A DNA stretch of 64,000 nt, taken from NCBI GenBank assembly GCA_000806115.1, contig JWKQ01000001.1, positions 304,915 through 368,914 on the forward strand, read 5' to 3'. The position numbers were made by a program, and so were the translations under genes. Numbering within the stretch: the stretch's first letter is position 1; the number at the start of each line of letters is the position of its first letter. Positions 8,441 to 32,232 of this stretch are shown here, piece by piece. This DNA comes from an archaeon GW2011_AR5. GTDB lineage: Archaea > Aenigmatarchaeota > Aenigmatarchaeia > GW2011-AR5. The notes beneath the pieces were generated by a model. The model did no database searches. It had not been told where the DNA came from and saw only the letters and a list, made by a program, of their open reading frames with translations.

Positions 8441-9559
8441 ATGCACATCAATTATTCACTGAAAACAAGAGCCGGCGGGAGAAGAACAGAGCAATTCAGA
8501 CCAACAGATGCAATTCCTTTCGGAAAATTAAGGTCCGATCACATGTTCCTGATGGACTATGCCGACGGAGAATGGTCCCATGCCAGGATTGTCCCTTACG
8601 GATCTTTGCATAATCTTATGCCGGGCGCAATATGCCTCCATTACGGGCAAGGAATATTCGAAGGACTGAAAGCTCACAAGCACCCAGATGGAGAATTGTA
8701 CACTTTCAGGGCTGACCAGAACGCGTCCAGGCTGAACAGGTCCGCTGACATAATGTGCATGCCTCATGTCCCGGAAGATGCTTTTCTAGAGTCAATTGAT
8801 GCCCTTCTAGACATTGACAGGCTGTGGTATCCAGAACAAGAGGAAGCTTCCATGTATGTAAGGCCCTGTATGATAGGAACTGAGGATTCAATTGGCGTTC
8901 ATCCAAGCGCGAAATACACTTTTTGCTTATTTCTTTCTCCAAGCGGTCCATATTATCCTGGAGGCTTCACAAAACCTATCGATCTTCTGATAAGCAAAAA
9001 GTTCCACAGAGCAGCCCCGGGTGGCACGGGCTCTGCAAAGGCAGCCGGAAACTACGGCGGCTCCCTTCGCGCAGGAAAATTTGCTGAAAACCTCCACTGC
9101 AAGCAGGTATTGTATCTTGACGTTTATAACGAACATGTTGAAGAAGCAGGCGCGATGAACCATTTTCATGTGACAAAAGACGGGAAAATAGTCATACCGG
9201 AATTCACAGATACGATACTGCGCTCTATTACTGCTATGTCTTTGTTGGAGACTGAAAAAGGACGCGTATGTCAAGAACCTGTTCCGATTCAGGCTTTCAT
9301 TGACGATGTGCGCGACGGAAGAATAACTGAGGCAGGCGGATGCGGAACTGCGGCAGTCATAACAGCCGTAGGCAGCTATCATTTTGACGACTGCACGCCG
9401 CCATTGCGAATCGGCAATGGGGAAATTGGTCCCGTGACAAGAGAGATGTATGAAAAACTTACTGCAATTCAGACAGGAAGAGCTGAAGCCCCATCGGGGT
9501 GGCTTCGGAAGGTGCAGAGAAGAAGCCCTGCGCACCCTTTGCAAGTGTCGGTTTCTTAA
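8441..9559 (+). CDS. ilvE: Branched-chain amino acid aminotransferase (class IV PLP)
   Basis: GQGIFEGLKAHKHPDG, KAAGNYGGSL, YLDVYNEHVEEAGAMNHF, ITEAGGCGTAAVI. Confidence 0.93.
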   Translation: MHINYSLKTRAGGRRTEQFRPTDAIPFGKLRSDHMFLMDYADGEWSHARIVPYGSLHNLMPGAICLHYGQGIFEGLKAHKHPDGELYTFRADQNASRLNRSADIMCMPHVPEDAFLESIDALLDIDRLWYPEQEEASMYVRPCMIGTEDSIGVHPSAKYTFCLFLSPSGPYYPGGFTKPIDLLISKKFHRAAPGGTGSAKAAGNYGGSLRAGKFAENLHCKQVLYLDVYNEHVEEAGAMNHFHVTKDGKIVIPEFTDTILRSITAMSLLETEKGRVCQEPVPIQAFIDDVRDGRITEAGGCGTAAVITAVGSYHFDDCTPPLRIGNGEIGPVTREMYEKLTAIQTGRAEAPSGWLRKVQRRSPAHPLQVSVS

Positions 9560-9583
9560 GCCCTGTAAGATTAATAAATATTC

Positions 9584-9880
9584 ATGCCCGAGCGCTCAAG
9601 AAACAAGCCCGAGTGGCAGATAAGGATTGCAAAGGAACGGATAGACATACTGTTCAGCGAGGCTGTAAAGACAAAAGATACACATCTCCGGAAACGCTAC
9701 ATGAGACTTGCAAAGAAAATAGGCATGCGGTACAACGTGCGGCTGGGCGAAAAGAAAAGACTTTTCTGCAGTCACTGCTTCCACTACTTTGGCGCCGAAG
9801 CGAAGCGCAGGCTGAAGAACGGAAAAATAGTCATTGCATGTCCCGGGTGCAAGCGCATTGCGCGGCAGGTTTATAAATAA
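9584..9880 (+). CDS. rnp4: Ribonuclease P protein component 4 (Rpp21/Rpr2 family)
   Basis: LRKRYMRLAKKIGMRYNVRL plus Zn-ribbon LFCSHC...ACPGCKR. Confidence 0.88.
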   Translation: MPERSRNKPEWQIRIAKERIDILFSEAVKTKDTHLRKRYMRLAKKIGMRYNVRLGEKKRLFCSHCFHYFGAEAKRRLKNGKIVIACPGCKRIARQVYK

Positions 9881-10085
9881 TAAGAAATGACGAAGCCACA
9901 ACTACACTAACCCGACATTAACAGGAAAAACAACGCAGTCAATCAAGGTTCTATAATATTTTTACAATTTTAAGTTTTTTGTCCTTCGTAACAGGACTCG
10001 TTTCCGCGCCTGTTACTTGTGTTTACATAAATATAGACATATATCAGTGTATGAATATATAAAGTTTGTTAACATTAATGTTTAC

Positions 10086-10229
10086 ATGGTAAGTACAGAA
10101 AAACCAAAGACAATAACTATTACATTAGGTGACAGGAAAGAAGGGAGATATAAGAGTTTTGTTGTTTATGGAGAAACACTGGAAGATTTAGAAAAGAAGA
10201 TTAAAAAATCTCTAAAAGAATTAGAATAA
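10086..10229 (+). CDS. 47-aa hypothetical protein upstream of fic
   Basis: MVSTEKPKTITITLGDRKEGRYKSFVVYGETLEDLEKKIKKSLKELE; the ATG at 10086 is preferred over the listed 10017 start. Confidence 0.55.
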   Translation: MVSTEKPKTITITLGDRKEGRYKSFVVYGETLEDLEKKIKKSLKELE

Positions 10230-10286
10230 GAAAATCCTTATTCTAAAAGAAACATAAATATTAGAATAAGAAAATCCTTATTCTAA
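10221..10286. promoter_or_regulatory. Two direct copies of the palindrome TTAGAATAAG-AAAATC-CTTATTCTAA between the small ORF and fic
   Basis: Identical 26-mers at 10221-10246 and 10261-10286, 40 bp apart; each has a perfect 10-bp inverted repeat. Confidence 0.7.
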
Positions 10287-10315
10287 AATGGTATGATGTT
10301 ATTGAGTGTGTGACA

Positions 10316-11494
10316 ATGAACATTAAGCGCTTCAAAAATCCAAGTGGAAAGCTAGTGGATAGTAAAGATGTTTACAATGGAGAGTGTTATCATTGCTTTA
10401 TTCCAAATTCCTTGCCGCCTACAAAATTAGAAAATTTCGACAGGTCTTTGGTGGCTTTACTATCGGAAGCTGATACTAATTTTAATCGACTTGTAGGTAT
10501 GGGCGAACAATTACCAAATCCTTACATATTGCTTCATTCGTACATTAAAAAAGAGGCTGTATTGAGTTCCAAAATAGAAGGCACTCAGGCATCTTTAACT
10601 GACTTATTCCTTTACGAATTGGAGAAAAATAAATCAAAAGATGATAGACTTGGGCTAAAAGAAATATCTAATTATGTAATTGCTACAGAACGTGCCATGA
10701 AACATATTAGGAAAAAGAGGAAAATATCTCTAGTATTGATTAAGCATATTCATAAGATATTACTTACAGGAGTTAGAGGCGAAGATAAAAATCCTGGCAC
10801 TTTTCGCGTAACCCAAAATGCTATTGTACCTTACAAGAATTGTCCATTAGATGAAATTAGACTTATACCACCACCGCCAAAATATGTGAATAATTTAATG
10901 CTCAATTTACAATCGTTTATTGATAATCCACCAAAAGATATTCCCATCTTAATTCAAGCAGCAATTATTCACTATCAATTTGAAACTATACACCCATTTA
11001 ACGATGGAAATGGAAGAATAGGAAGATTACTAATTCCACTTTATTTGTGCGAAAAAGGTAATATTCGTCATGCTCTTATTTATCTGAGCGCATTCTTTGA
11101 AAAATACGATAAGGAATATAGAGAACGTCTTTTACAAGTTAGCCAGAATAGCGATTGGAATAGATGGTTCAAGTATTTTTTAACTGCAATTTCAGAACAA
11201 TCAAAAGCATCGATGCAAAGTGTTGAAAATTTAATTAGGTTAAAAAGGAGCTACGATACTACATTAAGGAGAACTAAGGCAAGTAAGAACGTTGAAAGAG
11301 TTATGGAATCTCTTTTTGTAAATCCATACACAACTCCTAATAACATTATGACATATTTGAATGTTAGTTATCAAACAGCCGTTAATGTCATAAATACACT
11401 AGCAAAACTGGAAATAATTAAAAAATATGATGAAAGAAAGAGAAATAAGGTGTATATTGCACCCAGAATATTGAAAATTATAGATAATGCTTAA
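10316..11494 (+). CDS. Fic family protein (probable AMPylase, class II architecture) with C-terminal wHTH
   Basis: HPFNDGNGRIGRL catalytic motif; inhibitory-helix-like SSKIEG; C-terminal helix-turn-helix region. Confidence 0.92.
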   Translation: MNIKRFKNPSGKLVDSKDVYNGECYHCFIPNSLPPTKLENFDRSLVALLSEADTNFNRLVGMGEQLPNPYILLHSYIKKEAVLSSKIEGTQASLTDLFLYELEKNKSKDDRLGLKEISNYVIATERAMKHIRKKRKISLVLIKHIHKILLTGVRGEDKNPGTFRVTQNAIVPYKNCPLDEIRLIPPPPKYVNNLMLNLQSFIDNPPKDIPILIQAAIIHYQFETIHPFNDGNGRIGRLLIPLYLCEKGNIRHALIYLSAFFEKYDKEYRERLLQVSQNSDWNRWFKYFLTAISEQSKASMQSVENLIRLKRSYDTTLRRTKASKNVERVMESLFVNPYTTPNNIMTYLNVSYQTAVNVINTLAKLEIIKKYDERKRNKVYIAPRILKIIDNA

Positions 11495-11621
11495 ATTCTG
11501 TAATGACATTTTAAAGCCCTTTGTTTTACAACCTTTCTAAGGCCCGTAAATGTTATAATACCAGATTCAGGTCATGCTTGAAAGGTTTATAAGTGTAGTT
11601 TTCCAATGAAATTTGATACTT

Positions 11622-12026
11622 ATGGTTTCGGCAAGAGAAGCAGACCAGCAGAAGCTTGTAACAAAGATGTCTGTCCAGATAAAGGACCATGTTCAGATGC
11701 CTGAATGGGCAAAATTCGTCAAGACAGGCATGTCCCGCGAAAGGCAGCCGGAACAGGCAGACTGGTATTACCTGCGCTCTGCCAGCGTGCTCCGTAAGAT
11801 ATACAACGACGGGCCTGTTGGTGTTGAAAAACTTCGCAGCTATTACGGCGGACTGCACCGAAGAGGACACAAACCGGCGAGGTTCGCGAAGGGCGGCGGA
11901 AAGCTGCTTCGTACCATACTCCAGCAGCTCGAGACGGCAGGATATGTGACAAAGGAAAAGAAGGGACGCCTGATAACGCCGAAGGGGCAGAAATTCGTTG
12001 ACGGCGCTGCAAAACTTACAAAATAA
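11622..12026 (+). CDS. rps19e: Ribosomal protein S19e
   Basis: WYYLRSASVLRKIYNDGPVGVEKLRSYYGG, RRGHKPARFAKGGGKLLRTILQQLE. Confidence 0.95.
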   Translation: MVSAREADQQKLVTKMSVQIKDHVQMPEWAKFVKTGMSRERQPEQADWYYLRSASVLRKIYNDGPVGVEKLRSYYGGLHRRGHKPARFAKGGGKLLRTILQQLETAGYVTKEKKGRLITPKGQKFVDGAAKLTK

Positions 12027-12197
12027 TTTTTTCTCAGAATGTTTTGATAATTTGTCCATGCCTAGAAAATAACATGAGGGGATTATGATAAAGGTTCGGG
12101 ATATACTGTCAAGATATGAAAGCGCCAGAGTATCCTACCAGGGCGGAACGACACCAGAAAGCGCCCATACATATGGTTCAGAAGAATTTTTTATCCG

Positions 12198-12251
12198 AGA
12201 ATGCATTGAAAACTGTCGCATGAATGCGGAAGTTGAAACTCAATGCATTCT
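12198..12251. repeat. Palindromic repeat B, copy 2, followed by a CCCGCACCTTTAGGTGCGGG hairpin
   Basis: Same 11-bp arms and right flank (CTGGAT[A/G]CTATG) as 6523-6573. Confidence 0.7.
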
Positions 12252-25689: not shown

Positions 25690-26388
25690 TTAGACTTTTT
25701 GCGCTACAAAGAAATCACGCTTATAATAGCTGTCATCAGGCAGCCTGAATTCATGTTCCCTGTACCCAAGAGCTTCAAAGCTCCTTTGACTTGGAGAAAA
25801 ATCTGAAGGTAAATCCTCACAATTGTTGCTGCATGCGAAAAAAACACCGTCGGGCTTGAGGACTTTCAGCATTTCTCGTCCTACGTACTGGATGAACCTT
25901 GCCTTGTCTTCCCGGCGCATTGAAACCGCAGGTTCTTCGTGATATGATGTTCCAAAAGGGTGAGCCCGACAAAACTGTCCGCCTTCCTGTGGGTTTGGAT
26001 ACATAAATTGAATATAAATCACATCGGCGCTATTTTCAGGGAGATACGCCGCTATATTTTCCCATTTATCTTGCAAAAACCTGACTCCGCTTTTCTCAAT
26101 CACATGCCTTGGCGGCGTCATTGTATGATCAATAGCTGTAGTTCTTACACCTTTCGAACCCATGTATGAAAGGGCTGCTATCCCATATATGCCTGTTCCA
26201 ACTTCAACTACTTGCGCGCCTCTTGGTTCAACAAATGTGGAAAGGAATGAAATTACCGGAGCGTAAAATCCTATTGGAAGCCACGGATTATCAGACTGCC
26301 AGTCAAGATACCTGTTCATTTTCAGGAAACATTCTATTTCATGTTCATAGTGCTCCCTGGTTTCCCGATCGAGACCTAGCGTTTTCAT
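25690..26388 (-). pseudogene. SAM-dependent methyltransferase-like protein, main fragment (N-terminus separated by the 26389-32142 insertion)
   Basis: VVEVGTGIYGIAALSY motif I-like; its first codons ATGAAAACG are the target duplication. Confidence 0.75.
26380..26388. repeat. 9-bp target-site duplication, left copy (CGTTTTCAT)
   Basis: Identical to 32143-32151. Confidence 0.85.
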
Positions 26389-26495
26389 GGCTTTGTTTAA
26401 AAAGTAGCTCTTGTTTAATAAGTAGGAAAAGTGTTTAAAAAGTCAGTTGTAGGTTATCGATTCTAATTTTTAAAGGCTATATACAATCTGTCAAT

Positions 26496-27995
26496 ATGGT
26501 CACAAAGGATGAGGCAAAAAAGGAAATTAGGCGTTTAGTTGAACTATATCTTAAGGATAAGGAAAAGTGGCAAAGAATAAAGGAAACCGAAACCCGTTCT
26601 AAATTCATAGACCAGATGTTAAAGGCGTTGGGATGGGATTTTGATTCTTTAGATGAAGTCCAGATGGAAGAAAGTGTATCTAATGAGTCAACAAAAAAGA
26701 GGGCAGATTATACTTTCAGACTTAATGGAGTTATTCGACTTATAGTAGAAGCAAAGGCAATCAGAGAAGATTTATCGAAGAAAGACTACATAGACCAAGC
26801 GATTGGTTACGCTTACAATAAATCATGTTCGTGGGCTGTTCTAACGCATTTTGAAGGCATAAAGATTTTCTTTGTAGATGAGGAAGGTGTACCATTTAGA
26901 GACATTGTTTTAGACGATATTAGCAGATTTGACGAGAACTTTGATAATTTATGGCTCATTTCAAGAGAGAGTTTTGTATCAAATACCATAGATAAAAAAG
27001 CCGAAGACGAGGGCAGGAAAAAGAGAAAAATAAGAATAGATGAGCAACTTTTTCAAGACTTGAATGTCTGGAGAGGACATCTATACAAGGATATTAAAGC
27101 GAATCATGGCACAAAGTATAAAGATGAAGAAATAGAGGAAATTGTCCAGAAAATCATAGACCGACTTATTTTCATACGTAAGATTGAAGACTTGCAAATA
27201 ACAGAACCAATATTGAAAAGTTTGGTAAGGCAAAACAGACCAAATACTTACAAGGAATTAAAGCTCATTTTCAAAAAATTCAACGAAGATTACAACAGCA
27301 AACTATTTGGCGAATCAGAAAAAGACGAACATGAAGCAGATAAAATAGAAGTCGGAAATAAGGCAATCTCACAAGTCATTGAAGGGATGTATAAGCCGTC
27401 TGGAAGAACAGTAGAATACAATTTTGCCGTTATTGATGCTGATATTTTGGGTAACATTTATGAGAGGTATCTTGGTTACATTCTGAAAAAACATAAGATA
27501 GTAGAAGGTCAAGCACACAGAAAAGAGCAAGGAATTTACTATACGCCAACCTATATTGTTAATTACATTGTAAAGAATACATTGGGCGAATTGCTTAAAG
27601 ACAAGAAATTAAATCCAGAAAAAATTAGAATTTTAGACCCTGCTTGTGGTTCTGGTTCATTTTTGATTAAGTCGTTTGATTATCTGAATAATTATTGGAC
27701 AAAGAAAGAAGGCAAAATAGCTCAAACTACGCTGGACTTGGAAGCTGGTATTACATTCACAAGAAAGGCACAGATTGTGAAAGAAAACATATTTGGCGTA
27801 GATTTAGATTCAAAGGCTGTGGAAATTGCACAGTTGAATCTTTTGCTTAAACTTGCTGAAAAAAAGCATAGGCTTCCTACATTAAGAAATAATATCAAAA
27901 TTGGCAATAGCTTGATAGATGATGAGAAAATCTCAAACAAGGCTTTTAAATGGGAAAGCGAATTCAAAGAAATTATAGCGGGGGGGGGGCTTTGA
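26496..27995 (+). CDS. Type IIG-like restriction-modification protein, N-terminal part (HsdR_N-like nuclease + MTase motif I)
   Basis: RSKFIDQMLKALGWD...KRADYTFRLNGVIRLIVEAKA nuclease-like region; GIYYTPTYIVNYIV; ILDPACGSGSFLIKSF. Ends by frameshift after the G10 tract. Confidence 0.88.
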   Translation: MVTKDEAKKEIRRLVELYLKDKEKWQRIKETETRSKFIDQMLKALGWDFDSLDEVQMEESVSNESTKKRADYTFRLNGVIRLIVEAKAIREDLSKKDYIDQAIGYAYNKSCSWAVLTHFEGIKIFFVDEEGVPFRDIVLDDISRFDENFDNLWLISRESFVSNTIDKKAEDEGRKKRKIRIDEQLFQDLNVWRGHLYKDIKANHGTKYKDEEIEEIVQKIIDRLIFIRKIEDLQITEPILKSLVRQNRPNTYKELKLIFKKFNEDYNSKLFGESEKDEHEADKIEVGNKAISQVIEGMYKPSGRTVEYNFAVIDADILGNIYERYLGYILKKHKIVEGQAHRKEQGIYYTPTYIVNYIVKNTLGELLKDKKLNPEKIRILDPACGSGSFLIKSFDYLNNYWTKKEGKIAQTTLDLEAGITFTRKAQIVKENIFGVDLDSKAVEIAQLNLLLKLAEKKHRLPTLRNNIKIGNSLIDDEKISNKAFKWESEFKEIIAGGGL

Positions 27996-29250
27996 TGTCG
28001 TTATTGGTAATCCTCCTTGGAGTGCAAAGATATCCTCTGACCTCAATAAAACATTAGCTAAAAAGTATGGAATAAGCGAAAAAAACATCAATATATGTGC
28101 ATTGTTCGTTTTGGAGGCTCTAAAGAAAGTTAAACCAAATGGCTATTTTGGATTTCTTTTGCCAAAAGTTTTGATTAAAAACGGAGCATACTATCACGTT
28201 AGAAAGGAGATTTTAGAAAACTACAAAATAAAACAGATAATTGATTTTGGTCAATTCCCTGAAGTTGCTTCTGATGCAATAGGATTAATTATTAAGAAGA
28301 CAAAAGACAAATCTGAAACAGATATATTTTTGTTTGAAGATAATTCAATTAAAAAAGAAAATACAATAAATCAAGATATCTTTACCAAAAGCCAATCTCT
28401 TGTTTTTTCGTTAGGTATTAATTCAAATATACAGAAAATCATTGACAAGATAAAAAATAACACAAAAGCACTTGGAGAGATTTTTGAAATTAAAAGAGGT
28501 ATAGAATTGGGTCAAAAAGCCCTAATAATAGAATGTAATAAATGTGGAACTTACAATGAAGCGCAAACAAAATATTATGGGTCTATAGAAAAGAAATGTA
28601 AAAAGTGTAAAAATAAGCTTGTAATTACAGAGCAAAATACAATACAAATCAGCTCAGATAAAAAGGACAATAAATACACACAAGAATGCATTTCGGGGAA
28701 TCAACTTAAAAGATATTCAATAGTGGATTCATACTTCATCAGAGCAGGACTGAAAGGTATAGATTACAAAGAAGAGGCTTTTAATTGTCCAAAGATTTTG
28801 ATAAAGAGAATTTCAACAAAAATTGAAGGAACATTTATAGATAAGAAACTCTTGGCATTTAATACTGTATATTCTATTTACAACAAAAACTTCAAAAGGA
28901 ATTATTTACTTTATACGTTAGGTATATTGAATTCTAAACTAATACATTTCTTTTATGAACACTCATACAACGTAGGCATGAACTTAACAACACAAGTAAC
29001 TATAGACTTCTTGTCAAAAATTCCAATAATGACTGTTACAGAGTCTCAACAACAAAATTTAATTAATCTTGTAGGAAAAAATATTTTGTTACAAGAGCAA
29101 TTAAATCAAATTAGGGACAAAGACACAGATGAAAAGAAGAATTTAGAACAAAAAACTATGGAAGTAAGTAAGGAAATAGACAATATAGTGTATGCCATTT
29201 ATAAAATAACAAATGAAGAAAAAAATATAATAGAAGATAGTTTGAAGTGA
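27988..29250 (+). CDS. Type IIG-like restriction-modification protein, C-terminal part (NPPW motif + target-recognition domain)
   Basis: GFDVVIGNPPWSAKISSDL directly follows the G tract in the shifted frame; inserted Zn-ribbon CNKCGTYNEAQ...CKKCKNK; the listed ORF starts at 28102. Confidence 0.85.
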   Translation, partial: GFDVVIGNPPWSAKISSDLNKTLAKKYGISEKNINICALFVLEALKKVKPNGYFGFLLPKVLIKNGAYYHVRKEILENYKIKQIIDFGQFPEVASDAIGLIIKKTKDKSETDIFLFEDNSIKKENTINQDIFTKSQSLVFSLGINSNIQKIIDKIKNNTKALGEIFEIKRGIELGQKALIIECNKCGTYNEAQTKYYGSIEKKCKKCKNKLVITEQNTIQISSDKKDNKYTQECISGNQLKRYSIVDSYFIRAGLKGIDYKEEAFNCPKILIKRISTKIEGTFIDKKLLAFNTVYSIYNKNFKRNYLLYTLGILNSKLIHFFYEHSYNVGMNLTTQVTIDFLSKIPIMTVTESQQQNLINLVGKNILLQEQLNQIRDKDTDEKKNLEQKTMEVSKEIDNIVYAIYKITNEEKNIIEDSLK

Positions 29251-29255
29251 TATTC

Positions 29256-29450
29256 ATGGGAAGAGCGAGAATGTATGCAAAAACAAGAGAAAAATATATA
29301 CGCAAAATGTCTGATAAATCCTTAATTGAAAAGCAATATCAAGAAGTTCCTAACAAGAATATAACAACTTCTGAAGTGATTTGTAAAAAATGCGGATTCA
29401 AAGCAAGATATAAATTCTTCAGATGTCCAGAATGTAATGAGCCTCAATAG
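29256..29450 (+). CDS. Small Zn-ribbon protein downstream of the RM gene
   Basis: MGRARMYAKTREKYIRKMSDKSLIEKQYQEVPNKNITTSEVICKKCGFKARYKFFRCPECNEPQ; starts 5 nt after the RM stop. Confidence 0.7.
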   Translation: MGRARMYAKTREKYIRKMSDKSLIEKQYQEVPNKNITTSEVICKKCGFKARYKFFRCPECNEPQ

Positions 29451-29452
29451 AA

Positions 29453-30271
29453 CTATTCATTTACATCATCGGATTCTTTGCTTTCAGGATGGTGTTTCTT
29501 TTTTTCTGTTTCTGGTCTATGCTTTTCTGGGGACTCAAGAGATAGTTTTTTCATAACTCTATTGACCAGTCCAATTAATTCATCTTTTTGTCCTTTTTTT
29601 TCTAAAATAAATTCTGAAAGAAGCTTTAATGATTCATCATTTGTGGCATTTAGTTTTTCCGCTACTGTTTCGGCTAATGTTTCTATCTCATTATGCGAAG
29701 CTGGATGAAGGGCATATTTTAATTGAAATAAATGTAGTGCAATATCTTTCGATGGTTCTATTATTGGTTTATCATGATACGTTACTTTTCCTTGCGTTTT
29801 TATAATTTGTAGACCTTCAAAATATCTTTTTGTAGCCTCTTTTGAATTGACGCCTTTGAAGTGTTTTTTGACGTAATTTTGAATAACGCTTTCCGTTACA
29901 TTTCTATTTCCAAAATGCGTATGTAATTCTTTAAACATAGAGTTTGATATAAACATTTCTTTTAAAGATTCTGAATTATTAACTGCTACGCCTTTTCCAA
30001 TATTTGTTAATATCCATTCTCCAGAATCGGTCTTTTCAACCAATTTATAAGCATCTCTAAGGGCATTTAAAATTCTGACAACTTTCTTTTCATGAAATCC
30101 TGTATATTGAACAATATCATCAAAAGACATATCACTACCCTGTGCCTCTTTCCAGAATTTCTTTGCGTAATCTAATGCCTGTGTAAATGTAGTAAAAGGT
30201 AACTTATTCTTAGTGCCTTTTGGTCTCCCTGTTTTTCTTTTTTTCTCTTTAACTTTTTGTTTATCTTTCAT
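29453..30271 (-). CDS. Putative wHTH DNA-binding protein with AT-hook-like N-terminus
   Basis: KRKTGRPKGTKNK AT-hook-like; MSFDDIVQYTGFHEKKVVRILNALRDAYKLVEKTDSGEWILTNIGKGVAV winged-helix-like. Confidence 0.65.
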   Translation of the reverse strand: MKDKQKVKEKKRKTGRPKGTKNKLPFTTFTQALDYAKKFWKEAQGSDMSFDDIVQYTGFHEKKVVRILNALRDAYKLVEKTDSGEWILTNIGKGVAVNNSESLKEMFISNSMFKELHTHFGNRNVTESVIQNYVKKHFKGVNSKEATKRYFEGLQIIKTQGKVTYHDKPIIEPSKDIALHLFQLKYALHPASHNEIETLAETVAEKLNATNDESLKLLSEFILEKKGQKDELIGLVNRVMKKLSLESPEKHRPETEKKKHHPESKESDDVNE

Positions 30272-30445
30272 ATCAATTCTTTATTATAGTAGAGTTTTTA
30301 AACGTATCGTTGCCATCTTCATTCATGGGAAATCTATAGAGTTCCATATAGCAAAATGGAAGTAAATACTATTCCCATATATTCACATGGGAATTGAGAA
30401 AGGCTTAAAAAGACTTGTGTCATATATTTAGAAGTAGAAAATGAG

Positions 30446-30559
30446 GGTGGCGTTACCCGCAACCTACACGAGTTCCCAAGAAGTTGATATCAGCAGGCTA
30501 CAACCTGCACGACAACCGATAGGATGGCTTGAGGTGACTGTGAATAGGAAGCCGCCACC
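30446..30559. other. GC-rich structured segment inside the AT-rich element (candidate RNA or relic of an IS end)
   Basis: Closing stem GGTGGCG (30446-30452) / CGCCACC (30553-30559); inner hairpin GCAGG-ctacaa-CCTGC. Confidence 0.4.
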
Positions 30560-30601
30560 TGATTCTACTATTATTATACTCACAAAATTATTAATTCTTT
30601 C

Positions 30602-30781
30602 TCAGGCTGATGAAGGCTGTTTTCCCTTAGCCGTTTTAAGCTCTTTTCTGAGCAGATTTTCAAGCATATCAGATATGTCCATGTCCTTGTCAATGCAGTA
30701 TTTCTTTACCTCTTTCCATAAGTCTGGGTTAATTTTGATGCTTGTGGTCTTCCTGACTACTTTTGTCTTTTCTTCTGTCAT
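30602..30781 (-). CDS. RHH family small DNA-binding protein (absent from ORF track)
   Basis: MTEEKTKVVRKTTSIKINPDLWKEVKKYCIDKDMDISDMLENLLRKELKTAKGKQPSSA, 59 aa, divergent from the transposase. Confidence 0.75.
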   Translation of the reverse strand: MTEEKTKVVRKTTSIKINPDLWKEVKKYCIDKDMDISDMLENLLRKELKTAKGKQPSSA

Positions 30782-30855
30782 ATATCAGTATTATAGTATT
30801 ATAGCTTTAAATACTTTTGCAGGGACATATAGTATTACATAATACAATAATACTT

Positions 30856-32106
30856 ATGAAGGTGATAAACGTGAAACAAGAAAATGAAATAAGGAAACAG
30901 AAGGGCTTGGAAATACTACAAACGTGCCGAATAATGCACAGAGATAAAGGCGGATATGTAGTCCCTTCGCAAAGTGGTAGCGGAGCTTATATAGTCCAAT
31001 ACAAAGACTTCAAGCCTGTCTGTGAATGTCCTGACTTTGAGAAGCATGGAACTTTAGGAATTAAATGCAAACATATCTGGGCTGTTGAACTCACGATAAA
31101 TAAGCAGAAAAACCCTGACGGCTCAACGACAATAACAAAGTCAGTAAGAGTGACATATGGTCAGGATTGGTCTTCTTACAATCAAGCCCAGACCAATGAA
31201 AAGCACTTATTTCAAAGATTCCTTTATGATTTGTGCGGAGAAGTAAGAAATCCTGTTCATACATTTGGAAGACCTTCTCTGCCTTTAGCTGATATGGTTT
31301 TTGCCTCTGCTTTGAAAGTCTATACGACCTTTTCATGCAGACGCTTTGTTTCGGATATGAGAGAAGCGAAAGAAAACAACCTCATAGACAAGGTATGCAG
31401 TTATTCAAGCGTAAGCAATTACATGCGGAACGAAGAATTAACGCCTGTTCTTTTAGACCTCATAGAGAAGTCAGCAAAGCCATTGAAAGCCATAGAAACA
31501 GATTTTGCCATAGACAGCTCTGGATTCGGAACTTCAAGATTTGACAGATGGTTTTCCTTCAAGTATGGTAAAAATCTTGAAAGCCGAATATGGATTAAGG
31601 CTCATATAATAAATGGCGTGAAGACGCATATAATTTCTGGAATAAAGATAACAGAAGCATATTCGCATGACAGCAAAGAGTTCATAGAACTTGTAGATAA
31701 AACAGCAAAAACTTTCCAGATAAACGAAGTTTCAGCCGACAAAGCCTATTCTTCAAGAGCCAACATAGAAGCCGTGGAAAGCGTAGGCGGGACAGCCTTT
31801 ATCCCGTTCAAATCAAACACAAGCGGAAAGCAGAGAGGCTCTATGCTCTGGAAGAAAATGTATCACTACTTCATGTATAACAAGGAAGACTTCTTACAGC
31901 ATTACCACAAAAGAAGTAATGCCGAAACAGTCTTTCACATGATAAAGGCAAAATTTGGAGATTTCGTAAGAAGCAAAGAGTGGACTGCACAGGTAAACGA
32001 AGTTCTTTTGAAAGTGCTTTGTCATAACGTCTGTGTAGTCATACAGGAAACTTACGAACTTGGAATACAGCCAAATTTCTGTTTAGAAAGTAAGGAGAGT
32101 GTTTAA
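30856..32106 (+). CDS. DDE transposase with N-terminal SWIM zinc finger (IS4/IS5-like fold; exact family not determined)
   Basis: VCECPDFEKHGTLGIKCKHIWAV SWIM; DFAIDSSGFG, EVSADKAYSSRANIEAV and RSNAETVFHMIKAKFGD as DDE positions. Confidence 0.9.
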   Translation: MKVINVKQENEIRKQKGLEILQTCRIMHRDKGGYVVPSQSGSGAYIVQYKDFKPVCECPDFEKHGTLGIKCKHIWAVELTINKQKNPDGSTTITKSVRVTYGQDWSSYNQAQTNEKHLFQRFLYDLCGEVRNPVHTFGRPSLPLADMVFASALKVYTTFSCRRFVSDMREAKENNLIDKVCSYSSVSNYMRNEELTPVLLDLIEKSAKPLKAIETDFAIDSSGFGTSRFDRWFSFKYGKNLESRIWIKAHIINGVKTHIISGIKITEAYSHDSKEFIELVDKTAKTFQINEVSADKAYSSRANIEAVESVGGTAFIPFKSNTSGKQRGSMLWKKMYHYFMYNKEDFLQHYHKRSNAETVFHMIKAKFGDFVRSKEWTAQVNEVLLKVLCHNVCVVIQETYELGIQPNFCLESKESV

Positions 32107-32142
32107 TATGTCAGCATGAAAATTGATTATTTAAACAAAGCT

Positions 32143-32232
32143 CGTTTTCATTGCATCTTCATATGCCTTTTCACGAATATCCCTGGGAATTTCGTCTTCC
32201 CAATATCCGGGCACATGCGGGATATCTTTCAT
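32143..32232 (-). pseudogene. Detached N-terminal fragment of the split methyltransferase gene
   Basis: MKDIPHVPGYWEDEIPRDIREKAYEDAMKT, which continues in frame as ...MKTLGLDRETREHYEHEIE at 26388. Confidence 0.75.

Follow-up and report, generated by a model that had tools for sequence, protein, structure and literature searches.

A probable transporter insertion sequence with a type IIG restriction-modification gene in the archaeon GW2011_AR5, and an IS903-like family that recurrently carries defence genes

Insertion sequences (ISs) that hold passenger genes are termed transporter ISs (tIS; ISfinder). Tn7-like elements use several Tns proteins. Transposons of the Tn7-like type carry diverse defence cargo (PMC8649781), and restriction-modification (RM) genes have been described that are flanked by two IS copies or were moved via IS rearrangements (Takahashi 2011, PMC3031569); IS-flanked RM systems are also credited to Furuta 2010, as that paper is cited. 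The text of a survey of archaeal RM systems makes no mention of transposons or insertion sequences (PMC10609329). Here we analyse a 64,000-nucleotide stretch of the archaeon GW2011_AR5 (Aenigmatarchaeota; contig JWKQ01000001.1, positions 304,915 to 368,914), termed the window, from a genome of 858 kb in three contigs. It contains a 5,754-bp element (window positions 26389–32142) that is very probably a complete, cargo-carrying tIS with a single transposase, from an IS903-like branch of the IS5 family, and whose cargo includes a type IIG RM gene.

The element is bounded by inverted ends that match at 12 of 13 bp, GGCTTTGTTTAAA on the left (26389–26401, forward strand) and AGCTTTGTTTAAA on the right (32130–32142, read on the reverse strand from 32142). 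Immediately outside these ends lies an exact 9-bp target duplication, CGTTTTCAT, at 26380–26388 and 32143–32151. When all 9-mer pairs surrounding the transposase gene were scanned without bias, the CGTTTTCAT pair ranked top, and no better-scoring inner end pair was found inside the element. The only transposase gene within the element lies at its right end (30862–32106, forward strand). G+C content is 33% in the element and 49% in the remainder of the window. An initial annotation, made from the DNA letters, had already proposed the two ends, the duplication and the single right-end transposase, and all of these stand.

The insertion interrupts a host methyltransferase gene (25690–26388, reverse strand), which is left with 232 aa; the protein would reach about 259 aa with the 27 residues encoded beyond the element. 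When the element and one duplicate are deleted in silico, the two parts are joined in frame (...KAYEDA to MKTLG...) with a gain of 27 residues, as the initial annotation had claimed. We looked for the interrupted gene in 19 genomes of the same family, and the empty site that the same annotation had suggested seeking in related genomes was found in a congener (G001). There the methyltransferase protein is uninterrupted (MKEIPHVPGWWEDEIPRDVRKKAYENAMKALGL...) and includes the N-terminal residues severed in the window, within a syntenic locus (proteasome alpha, methyltransferase, ribH-like protein, TerC-like protein). The 27-residue N terminus, on whose occurrence in this methyltransferase family the earlier reading had been made to depend, is present in the G001 protein, and this check did not refute that reading. 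With one end pair, one target duplication and the empty site, the locus supports a past insertion of the element as a unit, in line with the earlier claim that the cargo moved together.

The transposase is of the IS5-family DDE type, with an N-terminal SWIM domain, residues D218, D293 and E355, and the Y(2)R(3)E(6)K signature; D218, D293, Y348, R351, E355 and K362 are invariant across five family members. It matches DDE_Tnp_1 (1.1e-19). Its best NCBIfam model is NF033579 (IS5_2; 133 bits, E=1.4e-38), and because this score falls just under the cut-off of 140, by 7 bits, we call the family IS903-like, within or beside the IS5 family, and not a certified member of NF033579. The SWIM domain was assigned by profile in the window transposase only; the transposase alignment covers that region in 18 of the 26 bounded elements described below and begins after it in the other eight, so the domain is probably frequent in the family without being universal. 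A search of solved structures with the transposase found no relative. The window element and its relatives have GGCTTTGTT-type ends and a 9-bp target duplication, as does an IS903-type copy on a Klebsiella plasmid (L129; ends GGCTTTGTTGAATAAATC, duplication CCCACAGAG), whose record labels its protein 'IS5 family transposase' and which we take from its ends to be IS903. The transposase of this plasmid copy is related to that of the family (profile comparison E=1.7e-12 over 271 columns), but the copy is 1,056 bp long and lacks cargo, a SWIM domain and extra copies of the end motif. The window transposase is predicted to be active.

Relatives were found by the transposase alone. When 85,462 species genomes were scanned with the transposase alignment, 42 loci emerged. 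Their hosts are DPANN archaea, Thermoplasmata, a Euryarchaeota metagenome-assembled genome (MAG) and bacteria (e.g. Eremiobacterota, Acidobacteria, Chloroflexi, Actinobacteria). The closest named relatives of the window transposase come from groundwater Ca. Aenigmatarchaeota genomes, which would place the host in this DPANN group, and the transposase is present in 22 of the 156 genomes of the host's own phylum. Ends were then called by one rule: GGCTTTG with at most one mismatch, a 9/13 match between the two ends, and an exact 9-bp duplication. Such ends were found at 25 of 51 loci and in none of 2,550 controls with right and left ends swapped between loci, which excludes chance as the origin of the ends and duplications. 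Together with locus L043, where the duplication matches at 8 of 9 bp, this gives 26 bounded elements of 2.3 to 10.9 kb. The initial annotation had suggested looking for other copies with different cargo, and these exist: family members have their own ends and duplications and carry RM or other defence cargo. Since the same transposase family does this repeatedly, we regard the window element as a member of a transposon family and not as a one-off. For the L031/L038 element no left end was found, even with 20 kb of extra sequence. Viral spread was considered and rejected, no relative being found in viral contigs or phage records. At L056, an Acidobacteria MAG, there are two nested end pairs (8546–12240 and 8654–12131) with one and the same 9-bp sequence, TGTCCTAAA, outside both, possibly one element nested in another.

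The ends have an internal layout that recurs across the family. Near its tips, each element repeats the inner half of its own tip sequence, in variants particular to that element. The usual offsets are 4, 22 and 42 at the left end and, at the right end, 4 (inverted), 30 and 50 (both direct). The density of these extra end-motif copies is 7.65 per kb in the 200 bp next to the tips and 0.30 per kb in the interior of the elements. The window element has all three left sites, with cores at offsets 4, 22 and 42 (TTGTTTAAAAAGTA, TTGTTTAATAAGTA and GTGTTTAAAAAGTC; 26393–26444, forward strand) in a spacing shared with many relatives, and two of the three right sites, including CTGTTTAGAAAGTA at offset 50 from the right tip (32079–32092, forward strand). 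The transposase may plausibly bind at these inner repeats.

A second element in the same genome, found by a transposase search, spans 6,754 bp (L011:2832–9585), with ends AGCTTTGCACGTA and GGCTTTGCATTTA and its own exact 9-bp duplication, GAAGAGCAG. Its transposase is 67% identical to that of the window element, and its RM gene encodes an intact 978-aa type IIG protein in one open frame, 44% and 27% identical to the first and second halves of the window's enzyme and matching the type IIG profile PADLOC PDLC03604 over residues 5–972 (E=2.1e-146). The remaining L011 cargo includes a Zn-ribbon protein, a CPBP-protease-like protein (named from sequence) and other genes. The initial annotation had overlooked this second RM-carrying copy, along with the IS903-type ends, the subterminal repeats and the RM frameshift described next.

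The RM gene of the window element lies in two frames on the forward strand. The N-terminal part (26496–27995) encodes an HSDR_N nuclease (KRADYTF...IVEAKA) and methyltransferase motif I, with Pfam matches to N6_Mtase, Eco57I and HSDR_N, and matches PDLC03604 at E=1.5e-84. The C-terminal part (27991–29250), in a shifted frame, encodes the FDVVIGNPPW motif and a TaqI-like specificity domain (Eco57I 6.8e-17, TaqI_C 7.6e-15). Nuclease, N6 methyltransferase and specificity domain are therefore all encoded in the window, but spread across a frameshift, and the earlier designation of the gene as type IIG-like holds for its domains and profile match, not for a single open frame. The frame is broken by a tract of ten G (27980–27989, forward strand) between motif I and the NPPW motif; with 9 or 12 G the gene would read as a single frame of 917 or 918 aa. 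Nowhere else in the 858-kb genome, whichever strand is read, do eight or more G follow one another, and RM homologues have mixed glycine codons where the window has it. A search of solved structures with the RM protein found relatives that are methyltransferase structures. If functional, the window enzyme and that of the second element would cut and methylate DNA at a specific motif.

DNA methyltransferases, of several classes, are carried by 10 of the 26 bounded elements, the other 16 having other or unknown cargo. Besides the type IIG RM genes of the window and L011, we find a D12 methyltransferase with a PDDEXK nuclease (L041) or an HNH nuclease (L042), a C5 methyltransferase with Vsr (L046 and L051), a C5 methyltransferase (L066), an N6 methyltransferase with an HSDR_N-like start (L059) and an N6/N4 methyltransferase with an Mrr_cat-like part (L112). 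The tenth element, L043 (366–11253, 10.9 kb), carries a DISARM operon with genes for DrmMII, DrmE, DrmA, DrmB and a PLD protein. PADLOC matches are 2.3e-168 for DrmA, 4.4e-65 for DrmB, 5.1e-10 for DrmE and 8.9e-63 for DrmMII, and Pfam finds DrmE_C (2.3e-32) and PLDc_2, so that the DISARM gene set of DrmA, DrmB and DrmC (PLD) is present, and is of class 2 with DrmE and DrmMII. The transposase gene of L043 is broken. On the same contig a second transposase copy (L032, 3339–8966), for which ends were not found, adjoins a Vsr/C5-methyltransferase fusion gene and a UvrD/PD-(D/E)XK helicase. DNA methyltransferases are the commonest Pfam families in the cargo, accounting for 10 of its 98 proteins, against at least about 2 among the 140 proteins of the flanks (Fisher p = 0.004); one of the two flanking methyltransferases adjoins another transposase copy on the same contig. 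We infer that defence genes may be favoured, that is selected, cargo rather than merely frequent.

How the RM gene came to lie between these ends could be explained differently. If an ordinary short IS had settled here and the RM cargo had been inserted beside its transposase independently, the outer ends and the 9-bp repeat would be coincidental; the length of the cargo relative to an ordinary IS of about 1 kb (1,056 bp for the IS903 type) speaks for such an origin. It must contend, however, with an exact duplication outside 12/13 ends, the failure to find a better-scoring inner pair, and the same pattern at 24 further loci against none of the 2,550 controls; because of the empty site in the congener and the family-wide duplications we consider this origin refuted in practice and assign it very little probability. 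A composite transposon, in which two IS copies flank and jointly move the RM genes, has precedent in IS-flanked RM gene complexes (PMC3031569), but the element has one transposase and none at its left end, and the only other full-length transposase copy in the genome belongs to another element about 200 kb away. The two flanking copies being absent, we reject this origin, the least credible of those considered. The best reading is a tIS of a new variant that recurrently carries defence genes, with transposition and RM activity predicted from sequence. Several observations count against it. In the assembly the RM frame is broken; no identical second copy occurs at another site, so that recent movement is not demonstrated; and about half of the tested loci have no detectable end pair, some being cut by contig ends. 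The methyltransferase enrichment rests on 26 elements, and its flank control is a minimum. Finally, methyltransferase cargo is scattered on the transposase tree with no sign of a specialised defence lineage: the label changes 8 times, against a shuffled mean of 8.2, and since the changes are no fewer than with shuffled labels, repeated capture is favoured over one defence-specialised lineage.

The broken RM frame bears on whether the defence function is still in place. The G10 tract may be either a switch for phase variation or a fault of the assembly. That it turns the type IIG enzyme on and off, so that the transposon carries a tunable RM system, is a suggestion we hold tentatively: the tract is unique in the genome among runs of its kind and sits in the methyltransferase core, and relatives encode this glycine stretch with mixed codons, yet the picture comes from a single assembled genome in which no length variants were seen, and a homopolymer error would look identical. 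The tract is a candidate for phase variation in an archaeon. The element might instead be a degraded relic, its RM gene a pseudogene, the tract simple decay and the defence function gone here. The interrupted frame would fit this, as would the broken transposase of the DISARM-bearing relative, but both RM halves are otherwise open, losing a single G from the run would give 917 aa, the window transposase is intact and the second element keeps an intact 978-aa RM gene; we think decay unlikely, and less probable than the switch.

Under the preferred reading as a tIS, a single DDE transposase would recognise tips of the GGCTTTGTTTAAA type, together with the copies of their inner half that lie close by at each end, and would move everything between them to a new site via a 9-bp staggered cut. 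The passengers encode the type IIG RM enzyme, a Zn-ribbon protein, a 272-aa protein that resembles a DNA-binding protein, and a ribbon-helix-helix (RHH) protein, and the landing site was a methyltransferase gene. Other family members have repeatedly acquired genes for other DNA methyltransferases or defence systems (RM of types II and IIG, C5 methyltransferase with Vsr, DISARM). As in described tISs, a single transposase, IS-type ends and one target duplication enclose unrelated passengers. The IS-flanked RM systems (PMC3031569) share with the window element the mobilisation of RM genes with the help of ISs, but involve two IS copies or IS rearrangements, whereas in the window a single element encloses the RM gene as a passenger. 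Tn7-like elements are likewise a transposon family with diverse defence cargo; the window element is much smaller and has a single DDE transposase. In the literature, where subscription papers lay mostly outside our coverage, we found neither an account of this SWIM/IS903-like branch nor a case of it with RM or DISARM passengers, and its novelty is provisional.

The other cargo lies between the RM and transposase genes. The small Zn-ribbon protein (29256–29450, forward strand) has a counterpart directly after the RM gene in the second element, with 80% identity over 30 aa. That a Zn-ribbon usually accompanies this RM family was considered and rejected, since none was found next to other relatives within 1.5-kb flanks. 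The 272-aa protein (29453–30271, reverse strand) has an AT-hook-like N terminus (GRPKG) and no Pfam match above cut-off, and the 59-aa RHH protein (30602–30781, reverse strand) is antitoxin-like, with weak CcdA/RHH matches. Upstream of the transposase gene is a structured region (30426–30583, forward strand; -40.3 kcal/mol, z -2.7 for 30441–30575). It recurs, about 73% identical, in the relative L031/L038 (L031 4930–5090, reverse strand), and thus in two independent family elements, with the stem GCAGG/CCTGC of one kept as GCGGG/CCCGC in the other. These are the only two copies among the 156 genomes, and no Rfam family scored above the gathering score; the 3′ part (GAATAGGAAGCC) may resemble IS605/TnpB RNA ends. 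A 225-aa protein (MSKIGNY...) adjoins the transposase at L031 (5219–5893) and L115 (12943–13620), 46% identical between loci that are otherwise different.

On a broader view, which falls somewhat short of probable, compact IS903-like transposons that share conserved three-site ends may form a family that is widespread but has gone unrecognised, and that serves archaea and bacteria generally as a vehicle for systems of DNA modification and defence. In this genome one copy would then hold an RM gene that is switchable through its G tract; that gene could both be of use to the host and punish it for losing the transposon. With a fixed layout of the end motifs, family members can readily be detected and the transposition model readily tested. 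The spread of RM and other defence systems is usually ascribed to plasmids, prophages, islands and large Tn7-like elements. An element of 2 to 11 kb with one transposase, which repeatedly carries defence systems in DPANN archaea and several bacterial phyla, would be a simple route for their transfer.

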